Source: Elusimicrobiota bacterium
Lineage (GTDB): Bacteria; CG03; SLGR01
Direction: 5' to 3'
Assembly (NCBI GenBank): GCA_003553445.1
Contig: PWEK01000095.1
Location: 1-54,944 of the forward strand
DNA: 54,944 bases
This document shows, piece by piece, positions 13,780 through 39,989 of the stretch. The notes under the pieces were generated by a model, which was not told where the DNA came from, did no database searches, and saw only the letters and a program-made list of their open reading frames with translations. A program made the translations under genes and the position numbers. The first letter of the stretch is position 1, and each line of letters opens with the position of its first letter.

Positions 13780-13797
13780 TCTTTATAAACCTCCTGT

Positions 13798-15069: not shown

Positions 15070-15099
15070 CTATTCTTACCTCTCACTTTACTTAAATCC

Positions 15100-15184: not shown

Positions 15185-15192
15185 AACTAATT

Positions 15193-15268: not shown

Positions 15269-15277
15269 GTTTTTATC

Positions 15278-15353
15278 TGGTACCCTCGGGGCGATTCGAA
15301 CGCCCAACCTACGGCTTAGAAGGCCGTTGCTCTATCCATTGAGCTACGAGGGT
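15278..15353 (-). tRNA. tRNA-Arg (anticodon TCT), CCA encoded
   Basis: Acceptor ACCCTCG/CGAGGGT, D arm GCTC-AATGGATA-GAGC, anticodon loop CTTCTAA (TCT), T loop TTCGAAT and CCA. First gene of the three-tRNA cluster. Confidence 0.96.
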
Positions 15354-18188: not shown

Positions 18189-20243
18189 TTATTCTTTAAT
18201 ATTTTGATTTTTAAAAGCCTTTTTATTTGCGGCCTTTTTGTAAGCGCTCCTGGAATCTATTATACCTTTCTCAACGAGGCTTTTAAGATGTTGTTCTAAT
18301 GTCTGCATGCCTTCCGCCCTGGCAAGCTGGATGGTTGAATACATCTGGGAAATTTTTTCTTCTCTAATCAGGTTTCTGATGGCATCATTGGCAATCATTA
18401 TCTCAAGCGCCGCAACCCTTCCGCCTGTTTTCTTTTTAATCAAGGTTTGGGAAATAACCGCCTGCAAAGATTCTGCCAGCATAAATCTCACCATCCCCTT
18501 TTCATTGGCTGGAAATACATCGATTATTCTGTCAATTGCCTGCGGGGCGCTGTTGGTATGAAGTGTTGCCAAAACCAGGTGCCCCGTTTCTGCTGCGGTA
18601 AGAGCCAGTTTTATTGTCTCTAAATCCCTCATCTCCCCTATCAGAATAATATCCGGGTCTTCCCTCAGGGCTGAACGCAGCGCAGCGCTGAAACTCCGTG
18701 TATTTTTATGCACTTCACGCTGATTTATTAAACACTTTTTACTTTCATGCAGATATTCAACAGGGTCTTCAATAGTTAAAATATTCAAATAATTTTTCTT
18801 GTTTTTGTATTCAATCATTGCTGAAAGAGTTGTGGTTTTTCCCGACCCCGTAGGCCCCGTTACCAGGATAAGCCCGGAAGGACTGTCAACTATTCTTTTT
18901 ATAACACGATCATGACCGATATCCTTTAAACTCATTAACTCTGCCGGTATAGCCCTGAATGCAATGGCCGAACCCCTGTATTGATGAAATGCATTTACCC
19001 TGAACCTTGCCCCGTGCGAAAGTTCATACGAAAAATCAATCTCATAATCCCTGTTGTAAATTTCCCTCTGCTCATCATTCATTATCATTTCAATCATTTT
19101 TTTTAAAATAGCACCGTCTATAGGTGCAATGCCTACTCTGTAAATATCACCATCAATCCTTAATATTGGAGGCATGCCGGCTGACAGATGCAAATCCGAA
19201 GCATTTTTTTTAATCGTAAACCTGAGAAGCTCATTCATGGAAAGCGGCTTAGCCTGTTCGGAAAAAATCACATATAAAAAATCCATGATTTTTTTATACT
19301 CTTTAAAGCCCTTGCTATTAAATTCTTCCGAAGAATCTGAACTGTAGCCAATATTGTAATCCACAAGATGCTTTCTGTATGAAAGTATCTTATCCTCAGA
19401 TTCGTTATCTGCTTTACAGGAACCGGCTGTTTCGATATGAGACAGCCTGTTGTGCAACTCCCGGAGACCCGTAAAAAATTTATTAAAATAACTTTTTTTA
19501 TCTACCCCCAGAACCGACAGCGCTTCTTCCAGGCTTTCTTTTTCAAGCGACACCTTAATAACATCCCGCATTTCTTCATCCCCGACAGAGGAAAGTTCTT
19601 TCTCCGTTATATATTTTCTGCCTGAAAGCTTCCCGGAAATGAGGTTAATTAAAATAAAAAGGCGGGCGGGACTTTTTTCTTCAAAGACTGTATTTTTCAA
19701 ATTTTTAATGGCTCTTAAAAATAAGTTTTCAAAATCCTTTTTATCTTCTGAAATCAACTCCGCCCAAAAACCCATATCAAATGGCTTTTGAAAACTCAGC
19801 AAAAGAGCTTTTCTCTCTCTGCCGGGGCTGATTTTATTTATACATTTTAAGAAGTACTTTCTAATAACCTTTAAATAAACAGAGTTCTGTGGATCTGTAT
19901 TTATATTCCCCACATTTTCATATTCCCATTGAATCACATCATGCTTTTTCCTGGCATTTTTTCGGGTTAAATCCGACAGATACCCCTCCAAAACATCCCT
20001 GCTCCATTTTATATATGTAGTTTCTTTTGGATTATAAACATGAAGATTTTCCGTAATGAACTTATGCGCCTCTTCAACAACACCCTCAAAATAACGACCT
20101 TCCTCAACACCCATCCGGGAAACGAGAGAAAACAAATATTCTCTCGTTTCCTCACAAAAACTACTGTAATTTTTATAATTTCCCGTTCTTATCTGAATAA
20201 TTACCGGAAGGATATTCTTCTGGCTTAAAGATTCTCCTGTCAT
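18189..20243 (-). CDS. Fusion: sigma-factor-like N-terminal region plus PilT-type ATPase
   Basis: 684 residues from the ATG at 20243, chosen because GAGAGGAG lies just before it; an upstream TTG at 20318 has no ribosome site. The C-terminal ~340 residues are a complete PilT, the hexameric motor that retracts type IV pili: NASDLHLSAGMPPILRIDG, Walker [15 protein letters not shown], Asp box LTIEDPVEYLH, Walker B DIILIGEMRDLETI, His box GHLVLATLHTNSA and the PilT-specific AIRNLIREEKISQMYSTIQ. The first ~190 residues resemble an ECF sigma factor in pattern: a region-2-like stretch (YLFSLVSRMGVEEG ... VVEEAHKFITENL ... YIKWSRDVLEGYLSDL) and a region-4-like stretch (INKISPGRERKALLLSF ... FENLFLRAIKNLK). 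Residues about 190-330 are unassigned. The sigma resemblance is inference; the PilT half is certain. No other pilus genes are in the window. Confidence 0.88.
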   Translation of the reverse strand: MTGESLSQKNILPVIIQIRTGNYKNYSSFCEETREYLFSLVSRMGVEEGRYFEGVVEEAHKFITENLHVYNPKETTYIKWSRDVLEGYLSDLTRKNARKKHDVIQWEYENVGNINTDPQNSVYLKVIRKYFLKCINKISPGRERKALLLSFQKPFDMGFWAELISEDKKDFENLFLRAIKNLKNTVFEEKSPARLFILINLISGKLSGRKYITEKELSSVGDEEMRDVIKVSLEKESLEEALSVLGVDKKSYFNKFFTGLRELHNRLSHIETAGSCKADNESEDKILSYRKHLVDYNIGYSSDSSEEFNSKGFKEYKKIMDFLYVIFSEQAKPLSMNELLRFTIKKNASDLHLSAGMPPILRIDGDIYRVGIAPIDGAILKKMIEMIMNDEQREIYNRDYEIDFSYELSHGARFRVNAFHQYRGSAIAFRAIPAELMSLKDIGHDRVIKRIVDSPSGLILVTGPTGSGKTTTLSAMIEYKNKKNYLNILTIEDPVEYLHESKKCLINQREVHKNTRSFSAALRSALREDPDIILIGEMRDLETIKLALTAAETGHLVLATLHTNSAPQAIDRIIDVFPANEKGMVRFMLAESLQAVISQTLIKKKTGGRVAALEIMIANDAIRNLIREEKISQMYSTIQLARAEGMQTLEQHLKSLVEKGIIDSRSAYKKAANKKAFKNQNIKE

Positions 20244-20372
20244 CTTTCTCCTCTCTACAGGGTGCTTACAACCTTGAAAATGTTCTTTCCCAAATTCTGC
20301 GCCGCTATTGATTATCAAATTTCAATTAATAAAATTAATACGGTCAAGCAGTATTAGTAATGTTAACATTTA

Positions 20373-22602: not shown

Positions 22603-22953
22603 TGGTGGAGGCGGCGGGAATCGAACCCGCGTCCAGAAATCATGAAACAGGGTATCTACAGGCTTAGCCCCGTCTTTTTTTCTTCCGCACTGTTACGAGA
22701 CAAACAATATGCGGAAGGTTTCCCCTTAAGGTTTCGCTTCAGAAGCCAGGGGTTACTTCTGAAACTATACCGTCATTATGGCACTCTCGACGGCATGACG
22801 ATCAATGACCGCCGGAGCGGACTGCTTTTCTTTAAGCAGCCAGTGCTAGACTATCGTCTGCGTTTACTTAATCACCGGAGTTTTTAAGTGGTTCCGGCGA
22901 ACACTGCCTGCTGCCCTAATCTCTCTGATTCCTGTCGAGCCCTAATCGCCCCC
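22603..22953 (-). ncRNA. ssrA: Transfer-messenger RNA (tmRNA), one-piece form
   Basis: Rescues stalled ribosomes with SmpB. The tRNA-like ends are clear on the minus strand: 5' GGGGGCGATTAGGGCTCGAC, 3' GGTTCGATTCCCGCCGCCTCC then ACCA. The acceptor GGGGGCG pairs with CGCCTCC. Length 351 bases. The tag frame is at 22832-22861: the resume codon GCA follows TAAAC, and the tag reads ADDSLALAA then TAA. Its ALAA end is the usual ClpXP degradation signal, and clpXP is encoded at 11877-13779. Pseudoknot stems fill the remainder. Confidence 0.96.
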
Positions 22954-24766: not shown

Positions 24767-25825
24767 TTAATGGAGCACTTCTTCAACCTGAACAAACTCC
24801 ACTCCCGCTATTTTTAATTCCGGAATCATCTTTTCAAGAGCGGAAACGGTATTTAGTCTTTGAGCATGACATATAGCCACCATTGTTTCTCCGGGATCAA
24901 CCCTTTTTTTTATCAGGCGAAGCCTTCCCTTGATGTAATCCAAATCGTCTTTATTATCCAGAAAGAGAGTATTAAGAGCAGTTTTCACACCGTAATCCCG
25001 GGCCATTTCATATCCAAGTGTTCTCCCGGTAGTCCAGGAATCAATAAAGAAAAGATTTTTGTCTTTTGCAATTTTTAAAAATCTGCTCATTGACTCAGGG
25101 TTTGAGGTAAAAGAAGATCCCATGTGATTATTCAAGCCATTAATGCCCGGCACATCTTCCATGGCTTTTTTTAATGCTGACCTCATCTCCGTTTCATTCA
25201 TTTCATTTAAAAGCACGGGTCTTCCCGGGTTTACTTCCGGATATCTTTCAGGCTCCATCGGCATATGAAGAATGTAGGGGATGTTTTTTTCATTAAACTT
25301 TTCGGCATAATAGGTTGATTTTCTAAGCCCCGGGAGTATGGCATAAGTTAAATCTATACCCAGTTCAAGAAAGCGGCCGATATCGCTGTTCTGACCCAAA
25401 TCATCAACAATTATTGCGACCTTATATCTTTCCGGGACCACAGTTAATTCAATGCAGCTTAAAACTGCTCCGTGCAGACCAACCTCTATCTTCTGCGACT
25501 TTTCCTCTTCATGGATATCAATTACATCGTATCCGCTTCTCCCGGCTACTTCCCTTAACAGCCGGCCTACAAGATCCATCCGTTCAGGCGTTGTTTCAAT
25601 CTGCCTGTAAAGCTCTACCCATATCATTCTGTCCTTTTCTTTTTCGGTCTTTACAGCGGAAGATATTTTTTCTTCTTCCTTTCCCGCCTCAATCAGATAC
25701 TCAGTTAATATATTATCTATCTCATATGCCTTTTCCGTCAGGTCTTTTACCCTTGTCCTGATAAAGATTATTCCGGAAGCTATAACTAAAGCAAGAATTA
25801 AAAGAATAACTTTATTTTTCTTCAT
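24767..25825 (-). CDS. Divergent polysaccharide deacetylase family protein (YibQ-like)
   Basis: 352 residues. The N-terminal membrane anchor (KVILLILALVIASGIIFI) is followed by a linker and, from about residue 135, a NodB-like barrel: VAIIVDDLGQNSDIGRFL, ILHMPMEPERYPEV, GLNNHMGSSFTSNPE and FFIDSWTTGRT. These are the marks of the COG2861 branch, found next to envC in many Gram-negative genomes; its substrate is not settled. The start lies inside the ctpA end (14-base overlap). Role inferred from context: envelope or murein remodelling. Confidence 0.9.
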   Translation of the reverse strand: MKKNKVILLILALVIASGIIFIRTRVKDLTEKAYEIDNILTEYLIEAGKEEEKISSAVKTEKEKDRMIWVELYRQIETTPERMDLVGRLLREVAGRSGYDVIDIHEEEKSQKIEVGLHGAVLSCIELTVVPERYKVAIIVDDLGQNSDIGRFLELGIDLTYAILPGLRKSTYYAEKFNEKNIPYILHMPMEPERYPEVNPGRPVLLNEMNETEMRSALKKAMEDVPGINGLNNHMGSSFTSNPESMSRFLKIAKDKNLFFIDSWTTGRTLGYEMARDYGVKTALNTLFLDNKDDLDYIKGRLRLIKKRVDPGETMVAICHAQRLNTVSALEKMIPELKIAGVEFVQVEEVLH

Positions 25826-27080
25826 GCAGTTCTTTAGGGCTGTTTCTCATAAATATTTTCCTTGCCATAAGCAAATCATGTGCCCTGGCCAACTGGGGGT
25901 CGAGAATTTTTTCACCCGGCTTTTCTTCCTCTTCATCTTCATCTTCATCCGGATAGTAAATCTTTTGCTGCTGCTCAAAGATTTTCCTCCGTTCATCTTC
26001 TGTAACAGAGACCAGAATATCCGGCTTTATTCCCTGTTCATGTATCTTCTTTCCGTTGGGTGTAAAGTACTGCGCGGTTGTAAGACGAAGTGAAGAGCCA
26101 TCCTCCAGATCGATAATACTCTGGACAGATGCTTTCCCGAAACTCGTTTCACCGATTATTATTCCGCGCGCATGGTCTTTTATAGCGCCTGCGACAATTT
26201 CAGAACCGGAGGCGGAGCCCTTGTTTATGAGAACCACCAGAGGAATATCGGGGGATACCGGCTGCCTGGATGTGCGGAATTCTCTTGTCTGATCCGACCG
26301 TCTTCCTTCCGTATATACAACCAATTCGTTCCTTTTTATAAAAATATTGGCAGTTTCAACCGCAGAACTCAACAGGCCGCCCGGGTTGTTCCTAATGTCA
26401 AAAATCAGACTGTCAGCGCCTTTCTCTATGAGTTTATTCAACTCTTCCTCCATTATCTTCGGGGAGTCCTTTGTGAATTCCACAAGGCGCAAATACCCAA
26501 TGTCATTATCCATCATTCTGGTGTAAACTTTCTGGGGGACAATTGAAGCCCTTGTTATTTCATATTCTATTAAATCATCTTTATCTTCTCTTTTTATACC
26601 GATTTTAATATCTGTACCCACCTCACCCCTCATCTTGCTGACTGCCTCTCTTACGGTCAAGCCTACGGCAGATTCCCCGTTAATCTCCACAATCCTGTCA
26701 CCCGGCATTATGCCAAGCTCATAGGCGGGGGTTTCGGGCAACGGACTTACTACGGTAATATACCCGTCTCTTTCCGTGATTCTAATTCCCAGGCCTCCAA
26801 ACTTACCTTCCGTATCTTCCTCCAGAATTTTAGCATCTTCCGGCTCCATAAACTGTGAATACGAATCCAGTGTTTCAACCATCCCTTTCAAAGCCCCGTA
26901 TATGAGTTCCCTCGTATCCACTTCCTCTACATAATTTTCTCTTACCAGAACAAATGCGTCAGAAAAAATACGCATCAGCTGCTCAATGTTTTCACTGTTT
27001 TTGCTGTATATTGGTTTTATCACCAGCAAAGAGCATATAAAACCGACAAATATGACTAATAGAGTTAATTTTCTTTTCAT
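25812..27080 (-). CDS. ctpA: C-terminal processing peptidase CtpA (family S41)
   Basis: Periplasmic protease that in several bacteria trims peptidoglycan hydrolases and other envelope proteins. 422 residues: N-terminal signal/anchor (KLTLLVIFVGFICSLLVI), PDZ domain (about 90-170, with GLGIRITERDGYITVVSPLP and MPGDRIVEINGESA) and the S41 core. The catalytic Ser is in NKGSASGSEIVAGAI and the Lys in IGETSFGKASVQS. An acidic run follows the core (DEDEDEEEEKPG). AAGGAG precedes the ATG. A partner here could be the EnvC-like protein or its amidase. Confidence 0.95.
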   Translation of the reverse strand: MKRKLTLLVIFVGFICSLLVIKPIYSKNSENIEQLMRIFSDAFVLVRENYVEEVDTRELIYGALKGMVETLDSYSQFMEPEDAKILEEDTEGKFGGLGIRITERDGYITVVSPLPETPAYELGIMPGDRIVEINGESAVGLTVREAVSKMRGEVGTDIKIGIKREDKDDLIEYEITRASIVPQKVYTRMMDNDIGYLRLVEFTKDSPKIMEEELNKLIEKGADSLIFDIRNNPGGLLSSAVETANIFIKRNELVVYTEGRRSDQTREFRTSRQPVSPDIPLVVLINKGSASGSEIVAGAIKDHARGIIIGETSFGKASVQSIIDLEDGSSLRLTTAQYFTPNGKKIHEQGIKPDILVSVTEDERRKIFEQQQKIYYPDEDEDEEEEKPGEKILDPQLARAHDLLMARKIFMRNSPKELHEEK

Positions 27081-27140: not shown

Positions 27141-28292
27141 TTATTTAAGCCACTCGATAGGGTTCTCGGGCTGAGAGCCCCTGCCCAATTCAAAGTACAG
27201 GTTTTCTAAAGATAATTCCCCTATTTCCTGGGCGGGTTCAACCTCTTGAGCTACTTCTACCCCTACATTTTTTAAATTCCCATATATAGTATAATAATTC
27301 TTTCCGTGTTCAATTACAACCATATTACCCTTGCCGCTGAAATAGTCAGCATAAACAACCTCCCCGAAGCCAACGCTTTTCACAGTCCTTTCGTCTTCGG
27401 GTTTTATCTCAATCCCCCTGTTATAAATAACTGTATCCAGCTGTGAATGCCTCTGTCTGCCGAATTCTATTACCACCTCCCCCTTTAACGGCCATGGAAG
27501 ACCCCCCTTTGCCTTCACAAAATCCTCAGCAAGCCTGTCTAACCGCTCAATATTCTCAGCTTTTTCTTTAAGCGATGTCACCAGGCTGCTTAATTTTTCT
27601 TTTTCCTTCTTAACGCTTAGCAGCTCTCTCTCCTTTTCCTTTCTGTCTTCTTCAATTTCTTCTAGTAGCTCCATATGCTTTTTGTTTTTCTGAATAAGCC
27701 TTCCCTGAAGTATAAAAACCTCTTGCTTTCTATCCAGCTGCTTTCTCTTCTGTTCCTGCAAACTGTTTTTGAGTTCTCTCTTTTCCCTTATTGATTCTTC
27801 GCTTTCTTTATACCTGTTTGTTTCATAATCAAGATATTTTGCTTTATAGAATTTCATTTTATTGTTCTCTTTAGACATAATCTCAACATACCAGGGCAGC
27901 TCTAAATTTTTTTCATAAAAATATCCCTTTAAGGCTTTATCAAGCCGCATACCGTACTGTTTGCCCTTTCGCATTTCATAATCTAATTTATCTTCAATAA
28001 TCTCAATGTTGCGTTCCGCATAATTAATATCTTTTTCTATATCATCCACCTTTTTCCTCGTGGATATCATCTGTGTCTCAAGATTCTCCAAACTTATTAC
28101 TATCTCTTCTTTTCTTTCATCGAGATGATTAAGCGTTCTGTCAATCTGATTGATGCTCTTTTTGTATCTTTCAAGCTCAGACTCCTGCTTGCGGATTTTT
28201 TCATTTATTGAATCCAGATCCTGCTCAAAACCGGAATATACCCTCTCTGAAACAAAAAAAACAAGCACTGTCAAAACAAGTTTAGTTTTCAT
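27141..28292 (-). CDS. envC: EnvC-like murein hydrolase activator (coiled coil plus degenerate LytM domain)
   Basis: 383 residues. A signal peptide (LVLTVLVFFVSERVYSG) is followed by a coiled coil of about 220 residues and a C-terminal M23/LytM domain (about 265-383: GLPWPLKGEVVIEFG ... GFGEVVYADYFSGKGNMVVIEHG ... YTIYGNL). The zinc ligands of M23 enzymes are gone: NRGIEIK replaces the H-G-D strand and LYFELGRG replaces HLHFE. This is the pattern of EnvC, which is not itself an enzyme but switches on cell-separation amidases when FtsEX moves it. The ATG overlaps the ftsX stop (ATGA). Confidence 0.92.
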   Translation of the reverse strand: MKTKLVLTVLVFFVSERVYSGFEQDLDSINEKIRKQESELERYKKSINQIDRTLNHLDERKEEIVISLENLETQMISTRKKVDDIEKDINYAERNIEIIEDKLDYEMRKGKQYGMRLDKALKGYFYEKNLELPWYVEIMSKENNKMKFYKAKYLDYETNRYKESEESIREKRELKNSLQEQKRKQLDRKQEVFILQGRLIQKNKKHMELLEEIEEDRKEKERELLSVKKEKEKLSSLVTSLKEKAENIERLDRLAEDFVKAKGGLPWPLKGEVVIEFGRQRHSQLDTVIYNRGIEIKPEDERTVKSVGFGEVVYADYFSGKGNMVVIEHGKNYYTIYGNLKNVGVEVAQEVEPAQEIGELSLENLYFELGRGSQPENPIEWLK

Positions 28293-29059
28293 TTTCTTAA
28301 TTGCAAATAACCGATCACTCCCGGCACAAAACCGCTTAATAATATAACCGCCAGTGATCTGAATGTCCTTAACCTCATTGCTATACCCAGATAACCGCCT
28401 ACAGCATGGAGTAATGTATAAGCAGCTATTGCGCTAAATACCCCTTTGAAAAAAATAATCATAACTTCCCTGATAATCGCATACTCAACTTCAGATGCGG
28501 CATTGAGAGCAATATTCTTCTTTGCCCCGGCGGAAATAACATGTCCGGACGACGCTGAATATGAAAGGAGCACAAAAAGAAAAGCAGATAAAAACAAAAC
28601 AGATGAAGAAATACCACCCAGCTTATCTATAATTTCCTCTGCTTTTTGAGCAGCAGAGTATGAAAAGTCCACATTATCTATAATCTTCAGGTTCTCCATA
28701 GCTCTTGATATATTAATCATATATGGTAGATTAATCTCATTCATTTTTAAAGTCAAAGTAGCCGGCAAATTAAATCCTTCAGGAATATCTCTTTCCCCTG
28801 AAAAAATTTCCAAAGCCTGCTGAGAGGTTAAATAGCTTTCAACGGTAAAATAATCATTTCCGGAGATGATATCTTTAAACCCCTCGATCCCGGATTCGCT
28901 GTAACCGGACTGCAGGTAAACTGTCATCTTTATTGAGGAGGATAACTCGCGTGCGAAATCTTTCGCTAATGAAAAAAATTCAATGCCGAACACCAGGGCA
29001 AAGGCGGCGGCAGTTATACAGAAAGAAGATATTAAAGTGGACCTACGTGATTTCCCCAT
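28289..29059 (-). CDS. ftsX: Cell division protein FtsX
   Basis: Membrane half of FtsEX. Four predicted helices: one near residues 12-30, then three after residue 165 (SSSVLFLSAFLFVLLSYSA; EVMIIFFKGVFSAIAAYTLL; SLAVILLSGFVPGVIGYL). A periplasmic domain of about 130 residues between helices 1 and 2 is where FtsX holds EnvC. The frame opens at TTG 29065, but the ATG at 29059 has GAGG at good spacing and is chosen. It overlaps the ftsE end by 17 bases. Confidence 0.92.
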   Translation of the reverse strand: MGKSRRSTLISSFCITAAAFALVFGIEFFSLAKDFARELSSSIKMTVYLQSGYSESGIEGFKDIISGNDYFTVESYLTSQQALEIFSGERDIPEGFNLPATLTLKMNEINLPYMINISRAMENLKIIDNVDFSYSAAQKAEEIIDKLGGISSSVLFLSAFLFVLLSYSASSGHVISAGAKKNIALNAASEVEYAIIREVMIIFFKGVFSAIAAYTLLHAVGGYLGIAMRLRTFRSLAVILLSGFVPGVIGYLQLRK

Positions 29060-29696
29060 TTTCAAGCCTCAACACCTTCACTGCCTTTCTATCTGCTTTT
29101 ATTCCGGGTCGCGCAGAGAAAACAACCACGGTATTTTTGCTTGCGTAATCCGCCAGCATGCGCAAGGCTGTTTTCTCATCTGAAAACCCCCCGTAATTAA
29201 AATCACATATAATAATTTTCGGCTTCCAGACCATAACCATTGAAAGGGCGAGGGTTTTTTTCTCAATAAAGGATAATTTAGAGGGGGATACTTCCCTTTT
29301 GGCCATCAGCCTGCTTTTTTTTAATACACTCATAATGTTGTCGAAATAATCATTTTTCTTGTGAGCCTTAAGTTTGAGAATATATTTCATGTTTTCAAAA
29401 ACACTTTTTTCTTCAAGAAAATAAAAATCTTCTGACATATATCCGGTCTCTCTCATTCTATTTTTTATCTTCCGGCGCTTAAAATCAAATATCTCTTTAT
29501 CTTCGATAAAGACCTTTCCCGATGTCGGAAATATCTGCAGGGCCAGAATTTTGAGAAGCGTGCTCTTTCCGCTACCGGCCGGGCCCTCCATTTGGAGAAA
29601 ATCCCCCGGGTGCAAATCAAGATTGATGTTTTTTAAAATCTCATGCTTATCCGGTTGCCTTAAAAATACGTTTTCTAATTTAATAAGTGAAGTCAA
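29043..29696 (-). CDS. ftsE: FtsE-like ABC protein with degenerate catalytic motifs
   Basis: 217 residues in the FtsE position and of FtsE length. Walker A is intact (GPAGSGKSTLLKIL) and the overall fold aligns end to end with FtsE. The other ATPase motifs are lost: the Q-loop FQD is SED, the signature LSGGEQQRV is LSFIEKKTL, Walker B LLADEPTG is IICDFNYG (catalytic Glu replaced by Phe), and the switch-His region ATHD is FSAR. In E. coli, ATP hydrolysis by FtsE is needed to activate EnvC, so this protein should bind but not split ATP, or work with a different logic. Start is TTG at 29696; no ATG fits. Confidence 0.88.
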   Translation of the reverse strand: MTSLIKLENVFLRQPDKHEILKNINLDLHPGDFLQMEGPAGSGKSTLLKILALQIFPTSGKVFIEDKEIFDFKRRKIKNRMRETGYMSEDFYFLEEKSVFENMKYILKLKAHKKNDYFDNIMSVLKKSRLMAKREVSPSKLSFIEKKTLALSMVMVWKPKIIICDFNYGGFSDEKTALRMLADYASKNTVVVFSARPGIKADRKAVKVLRLENGEIT

Positions 29697-29773: not shown

Positions 29774-30448
29774 CTATATGTTTTTTATATTCTTTTCCTG
29801 CATTTTTAATCCGGGAAAATCCAGTCTGCTGCCGGGAATTTTATAACTGAACAAATCTGCGGAAAAACATCCCTCTTTCCTCTCCACCCCGATTTCCTGC
29901 GGGCAGGACTTGTAAGAAACAGATTCCCCCCTGTTTAACAAATACCTTCCTCCGACAAGCACGAGTGCAGAAGCCACTCCTACCGCAAGGGCTGCCTTAA
30001 TCTCGGGAATTCCCCAAAGATGTACCACAGCAACCAAAACAAGGGTGAATCCCCAGATAAAAATCAAAATCCAGGCCAGCCTGGAGCTGATTATAAGAGA
30101 AAACAACGGCCTGAATACTAAAATCACCGAAATATTCATCTGAATCATAAACAGTTTTCTCATTCTTTTCCTGTTTAAAAGAGATGATGAAACAGGATTT
30201 ACTAAACCAACTACAGCCGCTATTATTAAATCAGCTATAAAAATTAAACCGGCCCACGAAAAAACTAAAAGAGCGACAGAGCATAAAAAATATCTTAACC
30301 CGTATGCAATGCTGAAAGTAGCTACTTCAATATTTCCCGCGATTACCGCCAGCGCAAAAATTATGACAGAAGATACTTTTAACCCGTCTTCTCCTATTTT
30401 CGCTATTTCTTCAGCCGGCTTTATTATTATTCCAATTAATCTTTTCAC
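29774..30448 (-). CDS. Polytopic membrane protein (Yip1-like topology)
   Basis: 224 residues with about five hydrophobic helices (for example VSSVIIFALAVIAGNIEVA, FLCSVALLVFSWAGLIFIA, LAWILIFIWGFTLVLVAVV and ALAVGVASALVLVGG) and a soluble C-terminal tail of about 50 residues. The N-terminus RLIGIIIKPAEEIAKI and the helix layout recall the bacterial Yip1/YIF1 family, but that match is weak. GTG start with AAGGATTG-type spacing. It sits between the second giant coiled-coil gene and ftsE, all one strand, so it may anchor the rods to the membrane (inference). Confidence 0.7.
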   Translation of the reverse strand: MKRLIGIIIKPAEEIAKIGEDGLKVSSVIIFALAVIAGNIEVATFSIAYGLRYFLCSVALLVFSWAGLIFIADLIIAAVVGLVNPVSSSLLNRKRMRKLFMIQMNISVILVFRPLFSLIISSRLAWILIFIWGFTLVLVAVVHLWGIPEIKAALAVGVASALVLVGGRYLLNRGESVSYKSCPQEIGVERKEGCFSADLFSYKIPGSRLDFPGLKMQEKNIKNI

Positions 30449-30489: not shown

Positions 30490-33400
30490 TTAAATCTTCA
30501 GAATCGTTTCTTTTTCCGAATCCTTCCCGCTTTCACCTGTAAATGCGCCCAGAAGTTTTCTCACAACACCCTTCCTCGTCCGGCGCAGCCTGTGATTAAG
30601 CCTATTAACCTCAAGCTGCTTGTTTCTGTATGCAGTTTTCCACTTAATGTCTCTCTGTGCTATCCTGGCCTTAAGCTCCCTTACTTCCTCTTCCTTATCT
30701 CTTAATGCATTTTTATAAGAGAGCGCTTTGGACTTAAGTTTTCTTAATTCTTTAGTAGCCTCAGAAAACTTCCTCGAAAATTCTGATTCATTCTGGGCTT
30801 TTTCCAGCTGCATTTTCTTAAATTCCTCTTCCTTCTCATGCAACCTTACATTCCATTGTCTTTCACTGCTGTATTTCTCTTTTCTCAAATCTTCTATTTC
30901 TTCCTGAAGGCGGTTACGGTAGTCAAGAAGCTCTTTTTCTCTTGAAGAATAAATGCTGCGCCACTGTGATTCCTTCTGCTGAAGCTTCTCACGCAGAAAA
31001 AGCTTAAGGCGCCTCTCTTTTTCTTTTATTTTACCCCTGTATTCCTCTTCAAGGCTCCGGTTTTCCTCTCTCAGGTTTTTAAGTTCTTCTTCTTTCTGCC
31101 TTAACAGCCTATTTGTATCCTCCCTGATTTTTTCATGATTGCGGACCAGTTCAAGTATTTTTTCTTCTTTGTCGGTTATTACGCTGCCGACATCACCGCT
31201 TTTCCTGCGAACCCTGCTTATCTCGTCCCTCAACCTTTCCGTTTCCTGGATTAATGACTTTCTTTCCCGCTCGTGACCGGATGTCAACCTTTCTATTTCT
31301 CTCTTATAAAGTGAAACCTCGCTCTCTCTCTCAGACTCCGCCGCACGCGAGCGAGCTTCAGCCTCCATAATCCTGAACCGCGCATTGCTGAGCTCCTCCT
31401 GGATAAGTTCAGTCTCGTTCTTAACCTCTATATATTTATCCCTGTACTCTTCAAGCTCTTCCTTCATAATAGCAGATTCGTTCTCTTTTGTTGAGAGCCT
31501 CAACTGCAGTTCGCCTGTTGTATTTTTCAGGGAATTTATTTCATCGATTAATTCTTTTTCTCTTTCGTTCCATCTTGAAATTCTCTTTTCATAATCACTG
31601 CCTATTTTTTCATGTTTTTCTTTCAGTCCCCTAATTTCTTCCTTGAGCCTGTTTATTTCATTTTCCCTGACAACCAGCTTCTCTCTTTTTGATTCAATCT
31701 GAAGGTTTAAATCATATTCTACGTTTTTAAAGCCTTCTCTTATTCTTCTTTCTTTTTCCGCCGCCTTTTCTCGTGCATAGTTGATTTTCCGCTCAAACTC
31801 TTCATCTTTCTTTTTTATTTCGTAATGATACCTGTTTGCCTCATTATTAAAATCCTCTTTATATTCCCGGTTCTTTCTCTCTAATTCTTTATATCGCGTC
31901 CGGTAGTTTTTGAGCGCCGATTCCAAATCCCCGTTTCTTTTTTTCTCCCCTTGAAGCTTTTCCTCCAGCCGCTCAATATTGATTTCAAGAATTTGCCTTA
32001 CACGGGAAGACTCCGAACTTTTCTCCTCTTCCATGAGTTTAATCTCTTTTACTTTATGGAGATATTTTTCTTTTTCCGAAACCTGTTTTTCTCTTAAATC
32101 ATCAATTTTTTTCCTGTAATGCTTTCTTACTGATTCTATTTCTTCAGCCGCCCTCTGTTTTTCTTCCTCCACTTTATCCTTTTTACTGCTTAAGTCTTTT
32201 GAGCGATTTATGTATTCTTCCTGGAGTTCCTTCATCTTTTCAGAGGCCTCTTTTTTCAATAACCTTTTTTCCTGTTTGTAATTGTTTATCTCTTCCTGCC
32301 AGTTTTCTTTCTCCTCGGAAAGTTTATTTCTCAGCCACTGAAGTTCCGATTCAGCCATTGAGCTTTTTAATTTAAGGTCGTATATCCGGTCTTCATATTC
32401 ATAACTTATTTCTTTTCTTATTTCCGCCTTTTTTCTTTCAACATCGATTTTACTGCGGTTAAGCTCTTTCTCCAAGGCAAAAAGCTCATCTTTTAATTCT
32501 CTCTCCCTCTCCTTCAACTCCTCCTCTCTGTTTTTGTGCTCTTTTACAATTTCTTTTTCTCTTCTCTTAAAACCCTCCCTCATGTTTTCTATACGGCGAT
32601 TATGCTCTTCCTCTTTTTCTTTGCTGTGATTAATCAGGTTCTCCTGTTTTTCTTTCAATGCTGAAAGTTCATCGCAAAGTTTTCTCTTTTCGCGTTCAAA
32701 ATCTTCCTGCCTTTTTTTTATTTCTCTGTCCCATTCAAACCGGCTTTCCTTTATTTCCTCAGCCAGCTTCTGTTTGGATTTTCTCTCTTCTTCAATACGG
32801 TGAGACAGCTCCTGCCTTATCCTGTTTTTTTCTGATTCGGCAAATTGAATACTCGCCTTTAATTCCTGAACCTTTTTTGTTTTTTCATTAAATTTTCTGT
32901 GAAGCTCGGCATTTTCACTCTCATGTTCTTTTCTGAGGGCATTCATCTCCTCTTCTTTTTCTCTAATTTTCCTGAAAACACTTATTTTCTCGGAATTGAG
33001 CTCTTCCTGCAGAACTGTAAGCGAATTTTTTATATTGTCCCTTTCATTTTGAAGTTCATTCAGCTTTGCCTTATAATCATACTCCAGCTCCTTTTCCCGC
33101 CGCGCAGTATTTACCCTGTTCTCCCAGTTAGACTTTTTTTCTTCCTCATATTTGCTCTTTAAGTTTTCCAGCTGCTGCTTTTTTTCCGCCTTTATTTCAT
33201 TTATCCTGCCGGTTAACTCTACAATTCTGCGGTTTGCTTCTTCTCTTTTTTCTCTCCAGACATCGTATATTTCATCTTCGCGGGCTTTCATGGAGCGCCG
33301 GGTATTTTCAAGTTCCTGCTCTTTCAAATTAAGCTTATCGGACCAAATTTCCTTCTGTTCCTTTAAGCGGTTTTCCAGTTCAGCCGCATTCTGCTCAAGT

Positions 33401-35448
33401 TCCCTTTCACGCTCTTTAAGGGCACTGATTTCTTTCTCATAATGCCGGCTCAAATCCTGCCGGCGTTTCTCATTCTCCTGTTCAAGGTTCTTAATCTTTT
33501 CATCCTTTTCCTTTAACTGGCTGTACTTCTGCCTTCTTTCTTCTTCCATCCTGTCAGAAAGCTCCTTTAAGGAATTTTCCAACCCGGCATTAACAGACTC
33601 AAGCTTATGCTCTTTTCGCTGATATTCATCCTTTAAAGCCAGTATATCCTGCTGCGACTTTGACCTAATTTTATTTATTTCAGTCTGTTTTTTGGCTACA
33701 AGCCACTCCCAGTGCTCCTTTTTCTGCTGGAGCTGATGTGAAATTTCATTCGTTTCATTATCCAGACGTTCTCTCAGTTTCCTTATTCTGTTTTCCTTAG
33801 ACTCTTTTTCCTGCCTGATTATTTCATTCTGCTGACGAAGCTCCAGAAATCTTTCATTCCACAGGGCTTCTTTCTCTATCAGGTTTTTCTTTAATGAGCC
33901 TATCTCATCCCTTCTCGCTTCGAGTTTCTGCAGGAGGGTTGCAATATTTTTGTCTTTTTCATAAACGAGTGAATTTTTTTCCCTTATATTCTCGTTTAGT
34001 TTTTCAACAAGTTCGTTCTTCTCCTTTTTCCATCTCTCTTTTGAAGAAGCCAGCCGCTCCTTGAGGTCCTCTTCAATCCGGGACAACTCAGCCCTCTTAG
34101 CCTCAAGCATATTGTCCCGCTGGTCCTTTATTTTTTCTATTTCAGTTTTAAGTGAATCAATTTCTTGCTGCTTGTCATAAAGGCGCTTTCTGAAATCATC
34201 CAGCAGTTTTTCTTTTTCTCTTGTGACCCGGTGAAGCTCGCTCTCTGTTTTTTGAAGTTCACTTTGCAGGCGGGAATATTTTTCCCTGCTTTCCTCGGCT
34301 TCTTCTTCCCTTTCAAGATGCAGCCTTGCTGCTTTTACGTCATACTCATTTATCAGCTCCTGCGTTTTACGCTGCCATTTCTCGTTTTCTTCCTGCCTTG
34401 CCTGCCGGGTTTTCTCCAGCTCTTCTTTTAAATTCTGAATATCCTGCTTTAGCTTTCTGCTTTCATCTCTGTATCTGAGCTCTCCCTGCTCTTTCTCCCG
34501 CTTGAGTTCCTTTATATGCCGGTCTTTCTTATTTTCCAGCGATATTAATTTTTCGTTCAGGTTTTCTATGCTCTGATCTTTTCTTTCTATCTTTTCTTTT
34601 AAATCCTGTTCTTTAAGAAGTGTCCTGGAATATAAAACTTCGTTTTCCTCATGCTCTCTTCTTAACTCCGTCTCGAGTCTATCTTTAACTTCACTGTATT
34701 CTTTTTCCAGCTGGCCCTTCTGGCGCTCTTTTTCAGCTATAATGCTTCTTAACTTACCTAACTTTTCATTATTCCGTTCCCTGAGAGCATTTATTTCAGC
34801 TTCATGTATTTCTTCCCGCCTCTTTAGCTGATTTTCCTTTTCATTTAGCTTCCTCTCCAAATCGTCGGTCTTCTCCTCAAGTTTTTCTTTTTTTTCAAGC
34901 AGCTCTTCCTGACGCCTTCTGCTCTTCTCTTCTATTTCCGCTTTTTCTTTTTCGTAAAAAACCTTGATATTCTCCAGTTCATTTTTATTTTTACGATTCT
35001 GATGAACAAGAGTGTCTTTTAAATCAACCGACCGGGTTTTGTATTTATGACAGAGAGCCTCGAGATCATTTTTTTCCCTTTCCAGCTCCGCCGTTCTTCT
35101 GTCATAGTCCGCTTTTTTTTCCTTCAGCTTAAGGCTGAATTCTTCAGATATTTCCTGCTTTGCGCGAAGCAGATCCTCAACCCTCTTTTCTTTTAAAGAT
35201 ATTTTGCGTTCGTATTCCTCTTCCATCTTTTTCATCCGGGATTCGTTTTCGCGCTTCAAATGCGCCAACTTATTCTTTAAAGAGGCTATCTCGTTTATCA
35301 GGGTTGCCTTGCGGGTGTGATACTCCTGCTTTATACTATAATTCTCTTTTTCTTTAAGGCGTATCTTCTCTGCGCATTCCTTTTCCTGTTCCTGAAGTTT
35401 TTCTATAAGCAGCTCTATTTTTCTTTTCAGTTCTTTTTCTCTATTCAT
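30490..35448 (-). CDS. Giant coiled-coil protein, 1652 residues, no proline seen
   Basis: Almost the whole chain is charged heptad repeat, dominated by Glu, Lys, Arg, Leu, Asn and Ser. I see no proline from end to end, so an uninterrupted rod is possible; at 0.1485 nm per residue it would be about 245 nm. No signal peptide or membrane helix, so cytoplasmic. A 15-residue motif recurs irregularly: Trp, then hydrophobics at +4, +11 and +14, with Lys/Arg at +7 and an acidic residue or Gln at +8 (for example EIWSDKLNLKEQELENTRR, SQWRSIYSSREKELLDYRN, IKWKTAYRNKQLEVNRLNH). The C-terminus changes to a basic amphipathic tail (RRTRKGVVRKLLGAFTG), a possible membrane or nucleic-acid contact. Lies 13 bases after its paralogue. 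Function unknown; a cytoskeletal rod is the natural guess. Confidence 0.9.
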   Translation of the reverse strand: MNREKELKRKIELLIEKLQEQEKECAEKIRLKEKENYSIKQEYHTRKATLINEIASLKNKLAHLKRENESRMKKMEEEYERKISLKEKRVEDLLRAKQEISEEFSLKLKEKKADYDRRTAELEREKNDLEALCHKYKTRSVDLKDTLVHQNRKNKNELENIKVFYEKEKAEIEEKSRRRQEELLEKKEKLEEKTDDLERKLNEKENQLKRREEIHEAEINALRERNNEKLGKLRSIIAEKERQKGQLEKEYSEVKDRLETELRREHEENEVLYSRTLLKEQDLKEKIERKDQSIENLNEKLISLENKKDRHIKELKREKEQGELRYRDESRKLKQDIQNLKEELEKTRQARQEENEKWQRKTQELINEYDVKAARLHLEREEEAEESREKYSRLQSELQKTESELHRVTREKEKLLDDFRKRLYDKQQEIDSLKTEIEKIKDQRDNMLEAKRAELSRIEEDLKERLASSKERWKKEKNELVEKLNENIREKNSLVYEKDKNIATLLQKLEARRDEIGSLKKNLIEKEALWNERFLELRQQNEIIRQEKESKENRIRKLRERLDNETNEISHQLQQKKEHWEWLVAKKQTEINKIRSKSQQDILALKDEYQRKEHKLESVNAGLENSLKELSDRMEEERRQKYSQLKEKDEKIKNLEQENEKRRQDLSRHYEKEISALKERERELEQNAAELENRLKEQKEIWSDKLNLKEQELENTRRSMKAREDEIYDVWREKREEANRRIVELTGRINEIKAEKKQQLENLKSKYEEEKKSNWENRVNTARREKELEYDYKAKLNELQNERDNIKNSLTVLQEELNSEKISVFRKIREKEEEMNALRKEHESENAELHRKFNEKTKKVQELKASIQFAESEKNRIRQELSHRIEEERKSKQKLAEEIKESRFEWDREIKKRQEDFEREKRKLCDELSALKEKQENLINHSKEKEEEHNRRIENMREGFKRREKEIVKEHKNREEELKERERELKDELFALEKELNRSKIDVERKKAEIRKEISYEYEDRIYDLKLKSSMAESELQWLRNKLSEEKENWQEEINNYKQEKRLLKKEASEKMKELQEEYINRSKDLSSKKDKVEEEKQRAAEEIESVRKHYRKKIDDLREKQVSEKEKYLHKVKEIKLMEEEKSSESSRVRQILEINIERLEEKLQGEKKRNGDLESALKNYRTRYKELERKNREYKEDFNNEANRYHYEIKKKDEEFERKINYAREKAAEKERRIREGFKNVEYDLNLQIESKREKLVVRENEINRLKEEIRGLKEKHEKIGSDYEKRISRWNEREKELIDEINSLKNTTGELQLRLSTKENESAIMKEELEEYRDKYIEVKNETELIQEELSNARFRIMEAEARSRAAESERESEVSLYKREIERLTSGHERERKSLIQETERLRDEISRVRRKSGDVGSVITDKEEKILELVRNHEKIREDTNRLLRQKEEELKNLREENRSLEEEYRGKIKEKERRLKLFLREKLQQKESQWRSIYSSREKELLDYRNRLQEEIEDLRKEKYSSERQWNVRLHEKEEEFKKMQLEKAQNESEFSRKFSEATKELRKLKSKALSYKNALRDKEEEVRELKARIAQRDIKWKTAYRNKQLEVNRLNHRLRRTRKGVVRKLLGAFTGESGKDSEKETILKI

Positions 35449-35461
35449 TTTTTTCTAAATG

Positions 35462-38400
35462 TCACTGTTTTTTAATCCTGGCTATTTCTTCTTTGAGTCT
35501 TTTTTCCTCTTCTTTCCACTTTTTCTCAAGTTCCTTCAATTCTTTTCGTATTCTTTTTTTTTCATTCTTTGGGACATCGCGGTGTTCTCTTTCCTTTTCC
35601 TCAAGCTCCCTGCTGTATGACTCCTTCTTCTTTTCCAGTTTTTCCTTAACCGTTTTTATCAGGTTCTTCAGATTGGATTCTCTTTCTTTTCCCTCTTCTT
35701 CATACTTGCGGTTTTTTTCTTCTTCCTTCGAAGTATTTATACTCTCAGTTTTACTTTCATTACCAGCATCCTCATGCTTTAATGATCCGGGGTTTTCCAG
35801 CCCCAACCTGAATTTATCAATATTCTCTTCAAGTCTGCTCCTTATCTGGGCAAGTTCCTGTTTTTTCTCTTTTTTTTCTTCTTTCATTCTTCGGCTGCTC
35901 AAGGAAAGCTCCTTCTTTAATCTTGAATTCTCTTCCTTCATGTTCTTTATATCATTTTCAAGTTTCGAAACAGTCGTCTGAAACTTATCTTCCATTATAG
36001 AAATTTCGTTCTCATACTTGTTTTTCTGAGTAACCAGCTGTGACTCTTTTTCTGAAAACTTAGACTTTAAATCTAAATTCTCCTCCTCCAACTTCTTAAG
36101 CATATCCGAGTGCTCCTTGAGCTGCCGCCGCATATCTTTTTTTATCTGTTTTATTTCATCTTTATGCTCTTTCTTCTCTTTTTCAAGCGCTTTTTTATTA
36201 TTATCAAGTTCTTCATGAAGTTTTTCTATATCTTCTTCTTTTCTTGGCATCTCCGTATTAAGAATGCCTTCAACCCTGTTGAGCTGCTTCTGCAATTCGT
36301 TTTTTTCATTAAGCCACTCTCTTTCCCTGGAAGATACCTCCTCCATAAAATTTCGTTCCTTCTTTTCTTTTTCTTCCATCAGCTCTCTGTATTCTCTTTC
36401 TTTTTCCTTGAGCATTTCATTCCACTTTTTCCTGTCCTCTTCAAGCTGAAGCTGCAGTTTGGAATTTGAGTTTTTTAATTCCTCAAGTCTTTCTTCAAGC
36501 GCTTTTCTTATATTCCCCGAATCTTCCCTGAGCGCCTTTATCTGCTCATCCTTATTTCTTATTTTTTCTTCCCATACCTTCCGCTGAGCCGCAACCCTTT
36601 CTTCAAATTCTCTTAATAAACTTTCCAGTTCCTCTCTCACCTTGTCTACCTCCCAGGTTTTCTTACTGAGCTTTTCCTTCAGCTGCTGAACACTCTTATT
36701 TAATCTTTTCTCCCTGTTTTCAAATTCATTTTTAAGGTGCTCTGCTTCATTTCTTAAGGAAGATATAGTCTCATCTTTTTTTCTCTTTAACTTTTCAATC
36801 TCAGCATTTTTCTCTTCCCTTAACTCCCCTGTTTGAGTAAAAGCCTCTTTAAGCTTCGATTTAAGCTCTTTAACCTCAGCTTCCCTCTCCTGCTGAATCT
36901 TATTTATTTCATTTTCGGAATTATTTTTTATTTTCCTAATATTTCCGACAAGGTCAACTTTTTCCGCTTCATGATCGTTTTTTAGGCGGGTTATTTCTTC
37001 ATCTTTTTCAGCAGCAATTTCGTTATTTTTCACCTTTAATGAATTGATATCGTTTTTTAAGTTTTCAATCAGAAAAAGATTTTCTTTGTTCTCATTTAAA
37101 TATTCCTTTTCTTTCTCTGCCAGGCTGTTTTTCAGGCTTTCAATCAGGGATCTTTTTTCCGACATTTTATTTTCATATCTCTCATCTGCTTTTCTCAAGT
37201 TTGCCAGGAGCTCTTCCTTCTCAGATTCAAATTTTCTTCTGAGACTTTCCTTTATATTTTTTTCTTCCGATAGAAGTTTCTCAAGTTCAGAAACTTTTCC
37301 GGTATATCTTTCCCTCTGGTTATCTACGGATTGCTCCAGAGAAGAGATTTCCTTATGCAATCTTTCTTGCTCAACCCTGTAATTCTTCTCTTTTTCCGCT
37401 ATCTCGGTTTTCATATCAGACAGCTTTTCTTTAGCTAAATCCCTAGACTGCTGAACCCTTGAGATTTCTCTTCTTAACGATTCTACATTATTATGGTTTT
37501 TTCTTTCCGCTTCTCTTAAAATGCGTTCAAGCTCTTTTATCCTAAGCTGTTTTTCCGCTGTCTTTTCCGTCCATAGTCTGTTTTCCTGCCTTCTTTTGGC
37601 CGTCTCAACCGAAAGCTGATTTTTTATTTCATAATTCCGGGATTCAAGCTCATCTATACGTGAATTTTTTTCATTATTTTCTTTCTCATATTTATCCCTC
37701 AAACCGCTTATTTCAGTCTCAAAAGACTGCCTTAAATCTTTTTTCTCTTCATTAATATTTGAAAGATCATTTTCCAGCTGTATGATGCGGCCGTTTTTTT
37801 CCTCTATCAGAGACCTCATGTTTTCCTCAGTCCTTTTATGCGCGTTAATTTCACCGGAAATCTTTTCCTCATACCAGCCGGACTGCTCATCATTATGCTG
37901 TTTCAGTTTTTCATACTCTTTCTCAACCCTGTTTAGTTCTTCCCTGGCCTGATTTAATTCGTTAACAAAAGCGGCGGATTCCTTTTCCTTTTCTTTTTGC
38001 AGAAGACCAATTTTTTCTTCCTTTTGCAGAACTTCCCTCTCAAGTCTATTCTTTTCTTCCTCGTATTTCCTTTCCTTTTCAATCTGCGCCCTGCGTTCCT
38101 CCTGCCTTGCCGCGCTCTCTGCAGCATATCGGTTCTTAATCTCGGCTAATTTGGATTCCAGTTCTTTTATCTGTTTTGATTTTTCCTCTTCCTCAACCTC
38201 ATATTCATCCTTTAAATTTTTTATCTCTTCCTTGTATAAACGCTCCGCCTGCTCATTTTCAGCTTTAGCCTCGGCAAGTTCGGCCTCAAGGTTATTCACC
38301 TGCCTTTCCTTTTCTTCAATAAGATTCTTTAAATGAGATTCTTCCGCTTTAGCCGCCTCTTTCTCTGACGTGAGTTTCTTCTGATGCTCCTTGAGCCTAT

Positions 38401-39853
38401 TTTCGCTTTCACTCTTTAACAAATCATAGTCTTTTTGAGACCGGCTAAGCTCCCGGTTCAGATTTTCCAGCCTTTCATACAGCGTTTGAATTCTGCGGTC
38501 TTTCTGAGCGCGAAGCTTTTTGAGCTGTTTATCTTTTTCCCCTATTTCTGATTTATAGCGCACTCTTTCCCTTTCCGCTTTTGTTTTTACAAGGGATATT
38601 TCCTCTTTCAGTTTATCTATCTCTTCCCGGCTGCGGCCTATCTGAAATTTCAGTTCCGCCTCTGAACTTTCCTTTTTATTTACTAACTCGTTAACCTCTA
38701 TTTTTCGATCCCGCTCCCTGTCAAGAATGTTATTCTGTAATGTTTCAATCTCTGACTCCAGGTTTCCTATCTTCTGTTCATACTCCTGGATTTCAGCGCT
38801 GTGTTTTTCTTTTAAATCTTCTAAATCGGATTCCGCGCTTTTATCTGCAGCCCTTATTTTTTCCTCAAGAACCGCATTGGATTCCTTTAATTTTCTTTCT
38901 TTATTTTCCTTTTCCGCAATCAGCCTCTCATAATTATCGGCAATCTCATCTTTTTCTTTCTTCAGTCTTTCAATTTCATCAGCATACCTTTCCCGAACTG
39001 ATTCAATCTCCGCCTGGAGGGAATCCCTGTCCCGCCTGAGTTGTGATTTAGTAATGCCGAGCTGTTTTTGAAGGTCGATAACCTTGCGCTCTTTTTCATG
39101 TAAATCTCTTCGAAGCTTTTCCAGGCGCGCATCGCTCCGGCGCTTTAAATTGTTCTTTTCTTCCTCAAAAACGGCATTCTGGCTGGCTTTCTCATCTTTC
39201 AACCTGCTTATTTCCTGCTGATACCGGGCGTTAAGGGAGGACTGGCTGGCCTCAAGCGAATTTATTTCTTCCTGTTTTTTAGAAAGGCGCTCGGCCCATC
39301 TCTGCCTTTCTTCTTCGAATGTATTATCTTTTGAGGTCTCTTTTCTTAGGCGTTCTTCAAGTGAGTTTCTTATTTCTTCAAGATCGTTCTTTTTTAACTG
39401 ATATTCAGATCTTAGCTGAGCCTGGCGCAGGTTCATCTGGGCCTTAAATGTGTTTATTTCCCTCTGTTTTTTTGAGAGCTTTTTTTCCCAGCTTTCACGC
39501 TCTCTGGAGATATTTTCTTTAAGGTTTTCCATTTCTTTCTGAAGAGCCCTTTTGTCGCTGTCAATTTCTTTTATGGATTTTTCCCGGGATATGTCCTTAT
39601 TTTTTGGGGGGGCTTCTTCGCCGGTTTCGTCCAACTCATTCCCGGAGGGTTCTTCATTTTGGCCGGACATGCTTTCAATCTCGCCGGAGAGCTGCCTTAT
39701 TTCAGCATTTATCTTTGCAGCAGCTGATTTTATTTTTTTTACTTTTTCTCTCTCTTCTTCCGGGTTCAATTTATCCAGCACCTCCAGAAGTCTCTTGCGG
39801 GCATCTTTTTTAGCCGATACTAATATTTTTTTATCTTTTAATTCATTTTCCAT
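35462..39853 (-). CDS. Giant coiled-coil protein, 1463 residues
   Basis: Same composition as its downstream neighbour and sharing its Trp motif (RESWEKKLSKKQREINTFK, RQRWAERLSKKQEEINSLE, NRLWTEKTAEKQLRIKELE, RKVWEEKIRNKDEQIKALR). The N-terminal ~90 residues differ: a short helical part, then an acidic linker with most of the protein's few prolines (NEEPSGNELDETGEEAPP). The next prolines appear only near the C-terminus (TEMPRK, ENPGSL, RDVPKN), so about 1,150 residues run without a break. Predicted rod about 200 nm. No signal peptide. No clear ribosome site before the ATG; it starts 58 bases after tRNA-Asp. It opens the block that continues to ftsEX-envC-ctpA. Long antisense frames here are shadows of its skewed composition. 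Confidence 0.9.
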   Translation of the reverse strand: MENELKDKKILVSAKKDARKRLLEVLDKLNPEEEREKVKKIKSAAAKINAEIRQLSGEIESMSGQNEEPSGNELDETGEEAPPKNKDISREKSIKEIDSDKRALQKEMENLKENISRERESWEKKLSKKQREINTFKAQMNLRQAQLRSEYQLKKNDLEEIRNSLEERLRKETSKDNTFEEERQRWAERLSKKQEEINSLEASQSSLNARYQQEISRLKDEKASQNAVFEEEKNNLKRRSDARLEKLRRDLHEKERKVIDLQKQLGITKSQLRRDRDSLQAEIESVRERYADEIERLKKEKDEIADNYERLIAEKENKERKLKESNAVLEEKIRAADKSAESDLEDLKEKHSAEIQEYEQKIGNLESEIETLQNNILDRERDRKIEVNELVNKKESSEAELKFQIGRSREEIDKLKEEISLVKTKAERERVRYKSEIGEKDKQLKKLRAQKDRRIQTLYERLENLNRELSRSQKDYDLLKSESENRLKEHQKKLTSEKEAAKAEESHLKNLIEEKERQVNNLEAELAEAKAENEQAERLYKEEIKNLKDEYEVEEEEKSKQIKELESKLAEIKNRYAAESAARQEERRAQIEKERKYEEEKNRLEREVLQKEEKIGLLQKEKEKESAAFVNELNQAREELNRVEKEYEKLKQHNDEQSGWYEEKISGEINAHKRTEENMRSLIEEKNGRIIQLENDLSNINEEKKDLRQSFETEISGLRDKYEKENNEKNSRIDELESRNYEIKNQLSVETAKRRQENRLWTEKTAEKQLRIKELERILREAERKNHNNVESLRREISRVQQSRDLAKEKLSDMKTEIAEKEKNYRVEQERLHKEISSLEQSVDNQRERYTGKVSELEKLLSEEKNIKESLRRKFESEKEELLANLRKADERYENKMSEKRSLIESLKNSLAEKEKEYLNENKENLFLIENLKNDINSLKVKNNEIAAEKDEEITRLKNDHEAEKVDLVGNIRKIKNNSENEINKIQQEREAEVKELKSKLKEAFTQTGELREEKNAEIEKLKRKKDETISSLRNEAEHLKNEFENREKRLNKSVQQLKEKLSKKTWEVDKVREELESLLREFEERVAAQRKVWEEKIRNKDEQIKALREDSGNIRKALEERLEELKNSNSKLQLQLEEDRKKWNEMLKEKEREYRELMEEKEKKERNFMEEVSSREREWLNEKNELQKQLNRVEGILNTEMPRKEEDIEKLHEELDNNKKALEKEKKEHKDEIKQIKKDMRRQLKEHSDMLKKLEEENLDLKSKFSEKESQLVTQKNKYENEISIMEDKFQTTVSKLENDIKNMKEENSRLKKELSLSSRRMKEEKKEKKQELAQIRSRLEENIDKFRLGLENPGSLKHEDAGNESKTESINTSKEEEKNRKYEEEGKERESNLKNLIKTVKEKLEKKKESYSRELEEKEREHRDVPKNEKKRIRKELKELEKKWKEEEKRLKEEIARIKKQ

Positions 39854-39911: not shown

Positions 39912-39989
39912 TGGCGGGGTGGACGAGACTCGAACTCGCGACCTCTGGCTTGACAGGCCAGCGTTCTGACCAAACTGAACTACCACCCC
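39912..39989 (-). tRNA. tRNA-Asp (anticodon GTC), CCA encoded
   Basis: Acceptor GGGGTGG/CCACCCC, anticodon arm CTGGC-CTGTCAA-GCCAG (GTC), T arm with TTCGAGT, discriminator G and CCA. Transcribed toward the giant coiled-coil genes. Confidence 0.97.

Follow-up and report, generated by a model that had tools for sequence, protein, structure and literature searches.

To our knowledge, only scattered groups of bacteria organise their poles or division sites with long coiled-coil scaffolds. We analyse here two adjacent genes, A and B, which encode giant coiled-coil proteins on a 54,944-nucleotide contig of an Elusimicrobiota bacterium (PWEK01000095.1; the whole of this stretch is called the window). 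The described system closest to them in mode of working is HMW2 of Mycoplasma pneumoniae, a giant cytoplasmic rod (1818 aa, ~190–200 nm) that runs parallel along the cell axis in a polar structure and sets the length of the attachment organelle by its number of helix residues (PMC8191905). This likeness is one of design; HMW2 is built of 11 separate coiled-coil segments (1257/1818 residues) in a wall-less host and has no FtsEX-linked pair (PMC8191905). Scy and FilP of Streptomyces are also long, non-heptad dimeric rods for wall growth and division, and are likewise related proteins encoded close to each other, but they are rich in hendecads (period ~3.67), with an Ala-rich core and a DivIVA-like GYDxxEVD head (PMC9858780). 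A and B instead have a Leu/Ile/aromatic core with at most 7% Ala in the core sector and a period of 3.58, and no GYD was found in any A- or B-type protein, which sets them apart from the DivIVA-like superfamily (DivIVA, GpsB, FilP and Scy). Compared by description only, GPR of Agrobacterium resembles the pair in its size (2115 aa, ~1700 continuous helical residues) and in its proposed role as a polar organiser of membrane and peptidoglycan synthesis, whereas it forms a hexameric polar ring, carries apolipoprotein-like regions and is the product of a single gene (PMC8262873). Crescentin and the intermediate filaments share with A and B the character of cytoplasmic coiled coils, in their case acting in cell shape, but are heptad rods with a stutter that assemble into filaments.

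No Pfam, NCBIfam or PDB family fits either protein. A sequence search of the PDB returned generic coils only, such as myosin and apolipoprotein (a weak match of A to apolipoprotein E, E=2.5e-4), and a literature search on an Elusimicrobia coiled-coil cytoskeleton found nothing relevant. We propose, with moderate confidence, that A and B are homodimeric, membrane-anchored rods that would serve as a scaffold or ruler for envelope work linked to FtsEX and EnvC.

An earlier reading of the window from its letters alone (the sequence-only reading) had described two large open reading frames (ORFs) on one strand, and both were confirmed on the minus strand, separated by 13 bp. It was also right that the larger protein lacks proline and that neither has a signal peptide, the N-termini of both being charged. 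The smaller protein, B, does have a long proline-free run, though of 1119 residues (84–1202, out of a protein with 7 Pro) and not the ~1,150 given. Between the sister species G004 and G006, the ratio of nonsynonymous to synonymous substitution rates (dN/dS) is 0.10 for A and 0.17 for B, against 0.15 for the neighboring ftsE, indicating that A and B are real genes under purifying selection. Orthologs of B in G003, G004 and G006 have 1539–1570 aa. The two proteins had further been called paralogous; their profile similarity is indeed above that of block-shuffled or reversed controls (148–159 versus 34–127), while paralogy itself is unproven.

Both A and B are genuine coiled coils. The spectral period of their hydrophobic residues (LIVMFYW) was compared with shuffled sequences and forms a stripe with a power of 65 and 63, respectively, versus shuffle maxima of 7–10. 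Every full-length member of the families has a single dominant period of 3.565–3.580 (power 33–96 versus shuffle maxima below 10); in A and B, the median over windows is 3.576–3.578 and the phase of the stripe stays coherent across more than 1000 residues. The central 51-degree sector is 58–60% hydrophobic and the far side 5–14%. This strongly one-sided stripe rules out both disorder and a single alpha helix, an E/K/R-rich helix without a hydrophobic face, which were the structures that the sequence-only reading had named as contrary to a dimerising coil. The same reading had spoken of heptad repeats, and here the coiled coil stands while the plain heptad does not, the period being 3.58 instead of 3.5. 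Control periods were 3.52 for the SMC arms and 3.54 for the EnvC coil of this genome, and 3.50 for a tropomyosin sequence.

Each turn takes 3.63 residues in a helix free of distortion, against 3.5 in a heptad coil (PMC9858780); as 3.58 lies between the two, the supercoil would be about 40% as strong as that of a heptad coil. The stripe is close to 25/7 or 43/12, which corresponds to 7- and 11-residue units mixed in a regular way, and the resulting supercoil is far straighter than that of a heptad coil. From one anchor block to the next, orthologs mostly differ in length by a net 7, 11, 14, 18 or 43 residues, and such indels in the rod leave the phase of the stripe intact (mean cos 0.54, n=38, not all of these independent). 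A sequence repeat of 25 or 43 residues was rejected, since profiles gained little over stripe-preserving shuffles; the regularity lies in the stripe and not in a residue repeat. The estimated length is ~245 nm for A and 190–215 nm for B.

In a parallel in-register homodimer, a g residue meets the e' residue five positions on in the partner chain, whereas residues i and i+5 of the same helix lie across the core and do not touch. Lag-5 charge products were negative only at this g-to-e' geometry (z=−5.9 for A-types and −4.7 for B-types, with both taxonomic orders described below pooled) and near zero elsewhere round the helix. When one copy was slid against the other and 400 offsets were ranked by charge pairing, register 0 took rank 1/400 for A:A in G000, G003 and G004 separately, and also ranked first in pooled B:B. 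In the proteins of the sister order, register 0 came second in each pool, after offsets 25 and 4. SMC arms, which fold antiparallel, gave no homodimer charge signal and tropomyosin a weak one, both controls resting on few pairs. These charge statistics support A and B each being a parallel in-register homodimer.

The ends of the proteins were modeled with AlphaFold2 on aligned termini. B is predicted to begin with a helical hairpin and a disordered linker, followed by unbroken helix from residue 89. Residues 1394–1637 of A are predicted as one helix that continues through the tail, with the last 15 residues disordered. This tail, RKGVVRKLLGAF, is a basic amphipathic helix of a membrane-targeting-like kind, with equivalents such as RKNFISRFLNRI (G004), SKKGILKKIFGR (G008), NKGIFRKIFGK (G009) and KRSFLSKLFKK (G011). 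The pattern is present at the C-terminus of 11/12 A-types, four close relatives among them, versus 0/11 B-type ends, and it is the first- or second-ranked amphipathic-basic 12-residue window of the whole protein in 11/12 A-types (rank 6 in G002). In its short basic amphipathic C-terminal helix, A resembles MinD, whose targeting sequence we take to be KKGFLKRLFGG (compare RKGFFSRLFGK in G013), although in MinD the tail sits on an ATPase and in A on a giant coiled coil. By this analogy, the A tail would bind membrane. In MinD, the targeting helix sustains binding only when at least two copies are present (PMC6803595), and a homodimer of A would supply two.

The comparison set comprised sixteen genomes of the GTDB phylum, referred to by G numbers, in which the named relatives are metagenome-assembled genomes labeled ‘Elusimicrobia bacterium’. 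At least one member of a pair, counting the pair of either order, occurs in 14/16. Within the order of the window, A and/or B are present in G000, G002 (at a contig edge), G003, G004 and G006. The gene order there runs BtuB-like receptor, tRNA-Asp, B, A, a Yip1-like membrane protein with or without tetratricopeptide repeats (TPRs), FtsE, FtsX, EnvC/M23, CtpA, deacetylase and TsaD, and the stretch from B to EnvC is the same in G000, G004, G006 and, to the extent that it can be read, G003. At a contig start in G007 (C65; L108:1-162), 46 residues of the conserved motif at the N-terminus of B (61% identity) are followed directly by a stop, next to an unrelated CBS-domain gene; this piece may be a remnant, a rearrangement or a chimeric contig.

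A sister order (families f5 and f6) has a second coiled-coil pair in the same gene order, of ~1160 and 1200 aa, with the same 3.58 period and the A-type tail. This pair stands beside ftsEX in most f5 genomes. In G008, G011, G014 and G015 it is oriented divergently from the ftsEX operon, three to four genes separating the two, and the contig ends in G010 and G012 agree with the same placement. Lengths are matched within pairs, at 180 and 172 nm in the sister order versus 237 and 233 nm in that of the window, so that the two members co-vary between clades; pairs across both orders span ~170–245 nm. Comparisons of the two pairs by hhalign and by profile windows score above reversed and block-shuffled controls, but like-with-like scores hardly exceed those of cross pairs (178 versus 158–174), and homology of the sister-order pair to A and B is unproven. 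The syntenic pair in sister families bears out the expectation of the sequence-only reading that the two genes would be conserved in related genomes. In most sister-order genomes, a pilin- or pseudopilin-like gene (GFTLPEVML...) follows the A-type gene in convergent orientation (L084:3969-4667, L104:10595-11266, L103:1762-2433). The B-type genes of G011, G009 and G010 appear split or have one stop in the match (L105:5444-8907, L104:3289-6753, L107:10106-13498), for which a frameshift, a contig end or an assembly error are all possible.

The FtsE-, FtsX- and EnvC-like genes downstream of A (Table 1) probably form an FtsEX-EnvC module, an assignment that we treat as such given best matches of this kind below curated cut-offs in the window and an FtsX_ECD domain above cut-off in G003. 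A search with the single FtsX-like protein of the window found almost no relatives, as expected of a fast-diverging family, and gene order was used instead. Relatives of the Yip1-like protein have 685–728 aa with C-terminal TPRs. The gene in the window appears to be a clean, lineage-specific shortening without the ~500-residue TPR half found in G003, G004, G005 and G006, and no TPR remnant precedes ftsE.

Table 1. Features of the A/B locus in the window, all coordinates being those of the 54,944-nucleotide stretch.
Feature	Position	Strand	Description	Evidence
Gene A, giant coiled-coil protein, second of the pair	30490..35448	-	1652 aa, 0 Pro	ORF call
Gene B, giant coiled-coil protein, first (upstream) of the pair	35462..39853	-	1463 aa	ORF call
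A rod, residues 1-1624	30577..35448	-	hydrophobic period 3.580	
B rod, ~residues 89-1345	35819..39589	-	period 3.575	start from AlphaFold2, end read from sequence
B head, residues 1-65	39659..39853	-	predicted helical hairpin (helices 2-28, 35-64), conserved A.KDAR.RL	AlphaFold2 and alignment
B linker, residues 66-88	39590..39658	-	predicted disordered	predicted local distance difference test (pLDDT) < 50
A C-terminal basic amphipathic helix, residues 1625-1636	30541..30576	-	membrane-targeting-like	same position in 10 other A-types; predicted helical
Yip1-like integral membrane protein	29774..30448	-	224 aa, 41 bp after A	
FtsE-like ATPase	29043..29696	-		best NCBIfam match FtsE, E=5.8e-32, below curated cut-off
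FtsX-like permease	28289..29065	-		sole NCBIfam match FtsX, E=5e-6, below cut-off
EnvC-like coiled coil and M23 peptidase	27141..28292	-		Peptidase_M23 E=1e-15; best NCBIfam match EnvC, below cut-off
CtpA/Prc-type S41 protease	25812..27080	-		family search
Divergent polysaccharide deacetylase (PF04748)	24767..25825	-	downstream member of conserved cluster	family search
tRNA-Asp(GTC)	39912..39989	-	just upstream of B	conserved in four genomes

In the arrangement that we propose, A and B would be very long coiled coils in the cytoplasm, each of them a parallel in-register homodimer. A would be held at the inner membrane by its MinD-like C-terminal helix, two per homodimer, and the hairpin head of B would provide its own docking site. 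The two homodimers may associate side by side, and together, at the envelope's inner face, they would act as scaffold, tether or length ruler. Their partners would be the Yip1-type membrane(-TPR) protein, presumably co-transcribed with them, and the FtsE-FtsX-EnvC system for activating cell-wall hydrolases, and the site of action would most likely be the division site or a pole. Loss of MreB was considered as a reason for an alternative skeleton and rejected, as MreB is present in 16/16 genomes; the rods would thus add to the standard shape system rather than replace it. A tentative and rather doubtful extension of this picture is a division or pole machine peculiar to the phylum, whose two near-straight homodimeric rods of ~170–245 nm, tethered to the membrane, would act on the cytoplasmic side of FtsEX-EnvC as a ruler or as a scaffold that bears force.

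Several observations weigh against these proposals. For B of G000 alone, register 0 reaches only rank 38/400, and the tropomyosin and SMC controls are thin. The missing charge banding gives no sign of an ordered higher assembly. The A-type tail of G003 departs from the pattern, being related but weaker and containing Pro, and the partner membrane protein in the window has no TPR half. Matches to FtsE, FtsX and EnvC all fall below curated cut-offs. In G009 and G013 the pair is located away from ftsEX. A and B were not found in G001 or G005, where the contigs end at the operon (G001 inside it; G005 starts 127 bp before the membrane-TPR gene), so that absence of the pair from these two genomes is uncertain.

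The sequence-only reading had suggested a cytoskeletal pair, perhaps forming a heteromeric filament. Adjacent genes, lengths matched within each genome and a shared 3.58 period would all suit one heteromeric coiled coil or a mixed filament of A and B, yet the charge pairing fits homodimers and the A:B register scan yielded no offset that recurs between genomes (the minimum lies at offset 0 in G000 and G009 and elsewhere in the other eight genomes). The g-to-e' signal and register 0 for A:A and B:B, together with the lack of a recurring A:B register, thus favor two homodimers, and we consider the heteromer improbable. Long-period charge banding was absent in A and marginal in some B and sister-order proteins, and the lack of a clear band in A argues against a regular, myosin-like staggered filament. 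The label ‘cytoskeletal’ is reasonable but unproven, and the better fit is a scaffold or ruler that is anchored in the membrane and linked to FtsEX.

Somewhat less improbable, though still unlikely, is a bulk cytoskeleton of the crescentin/FilP kind that sets cell shape and whose synteny with FtsEX is incidental. The rods are large and alpha-helical and B matches the Pfam Filament family (PF00038) weakly (E=6.7e-5), but its 23.1 bits lie under the 40-bit cut-off, the rod has no segmentation by linkers, no charge banding accompanies it, and with MreB in every genome an alternative shape skeleton is not required. Very little speaks for arms of an SMC-like or chromosome-organising protein whose ATPase heads were lost or never present: the NCBIfam SMC matches are weak (25.5 versus 567 bits) and confined to coil regions, neither heads nor hinge are found, the genome has a normal SMC of ~1170 aa with a different period, and SMC arms lack the homodimer charge signal. 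It is just as hard to credit that the genes are accessory or recently acquired and stand at the operon by chance. Two genomes do lack detectable copies, yet strong purifying selection, the presence of such pairs phylum-wide and a gene order conserved across families largely refute this explanation. Homodimeric rods tied to the envelope remain the reading that we prefer.

We know of no long-range cytoskeletal partner of FtsEX-EnvC in other bacteria. In this uncultured phylum, a near-universal pair with a fixed non-heptad geometry lies mostly in or beside the FtsEX operon, and if the link is true, it would provide FtsEX with a cytoplasmic scaffold. A 3.58 design kept through 7- and 11-residue indels would, if true, be an example from nature of selection for a long, near-straight coiled coil. 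The charge-register test for homodimers uses sequence alone and is applicable to other uncharacterised giant coils.

Elsewhere in the window, all on the minus strand, are a PilT/PilU-like ATPase with a long N-terminal extension (18189-20318) and, at 10199-15353 and 22603-22953, a tmRNA with the tag ADDSLALAA and the tRNA genes for Lys, Leu, Lys and Arg in the neighborhood of clpX/clpP/tig.

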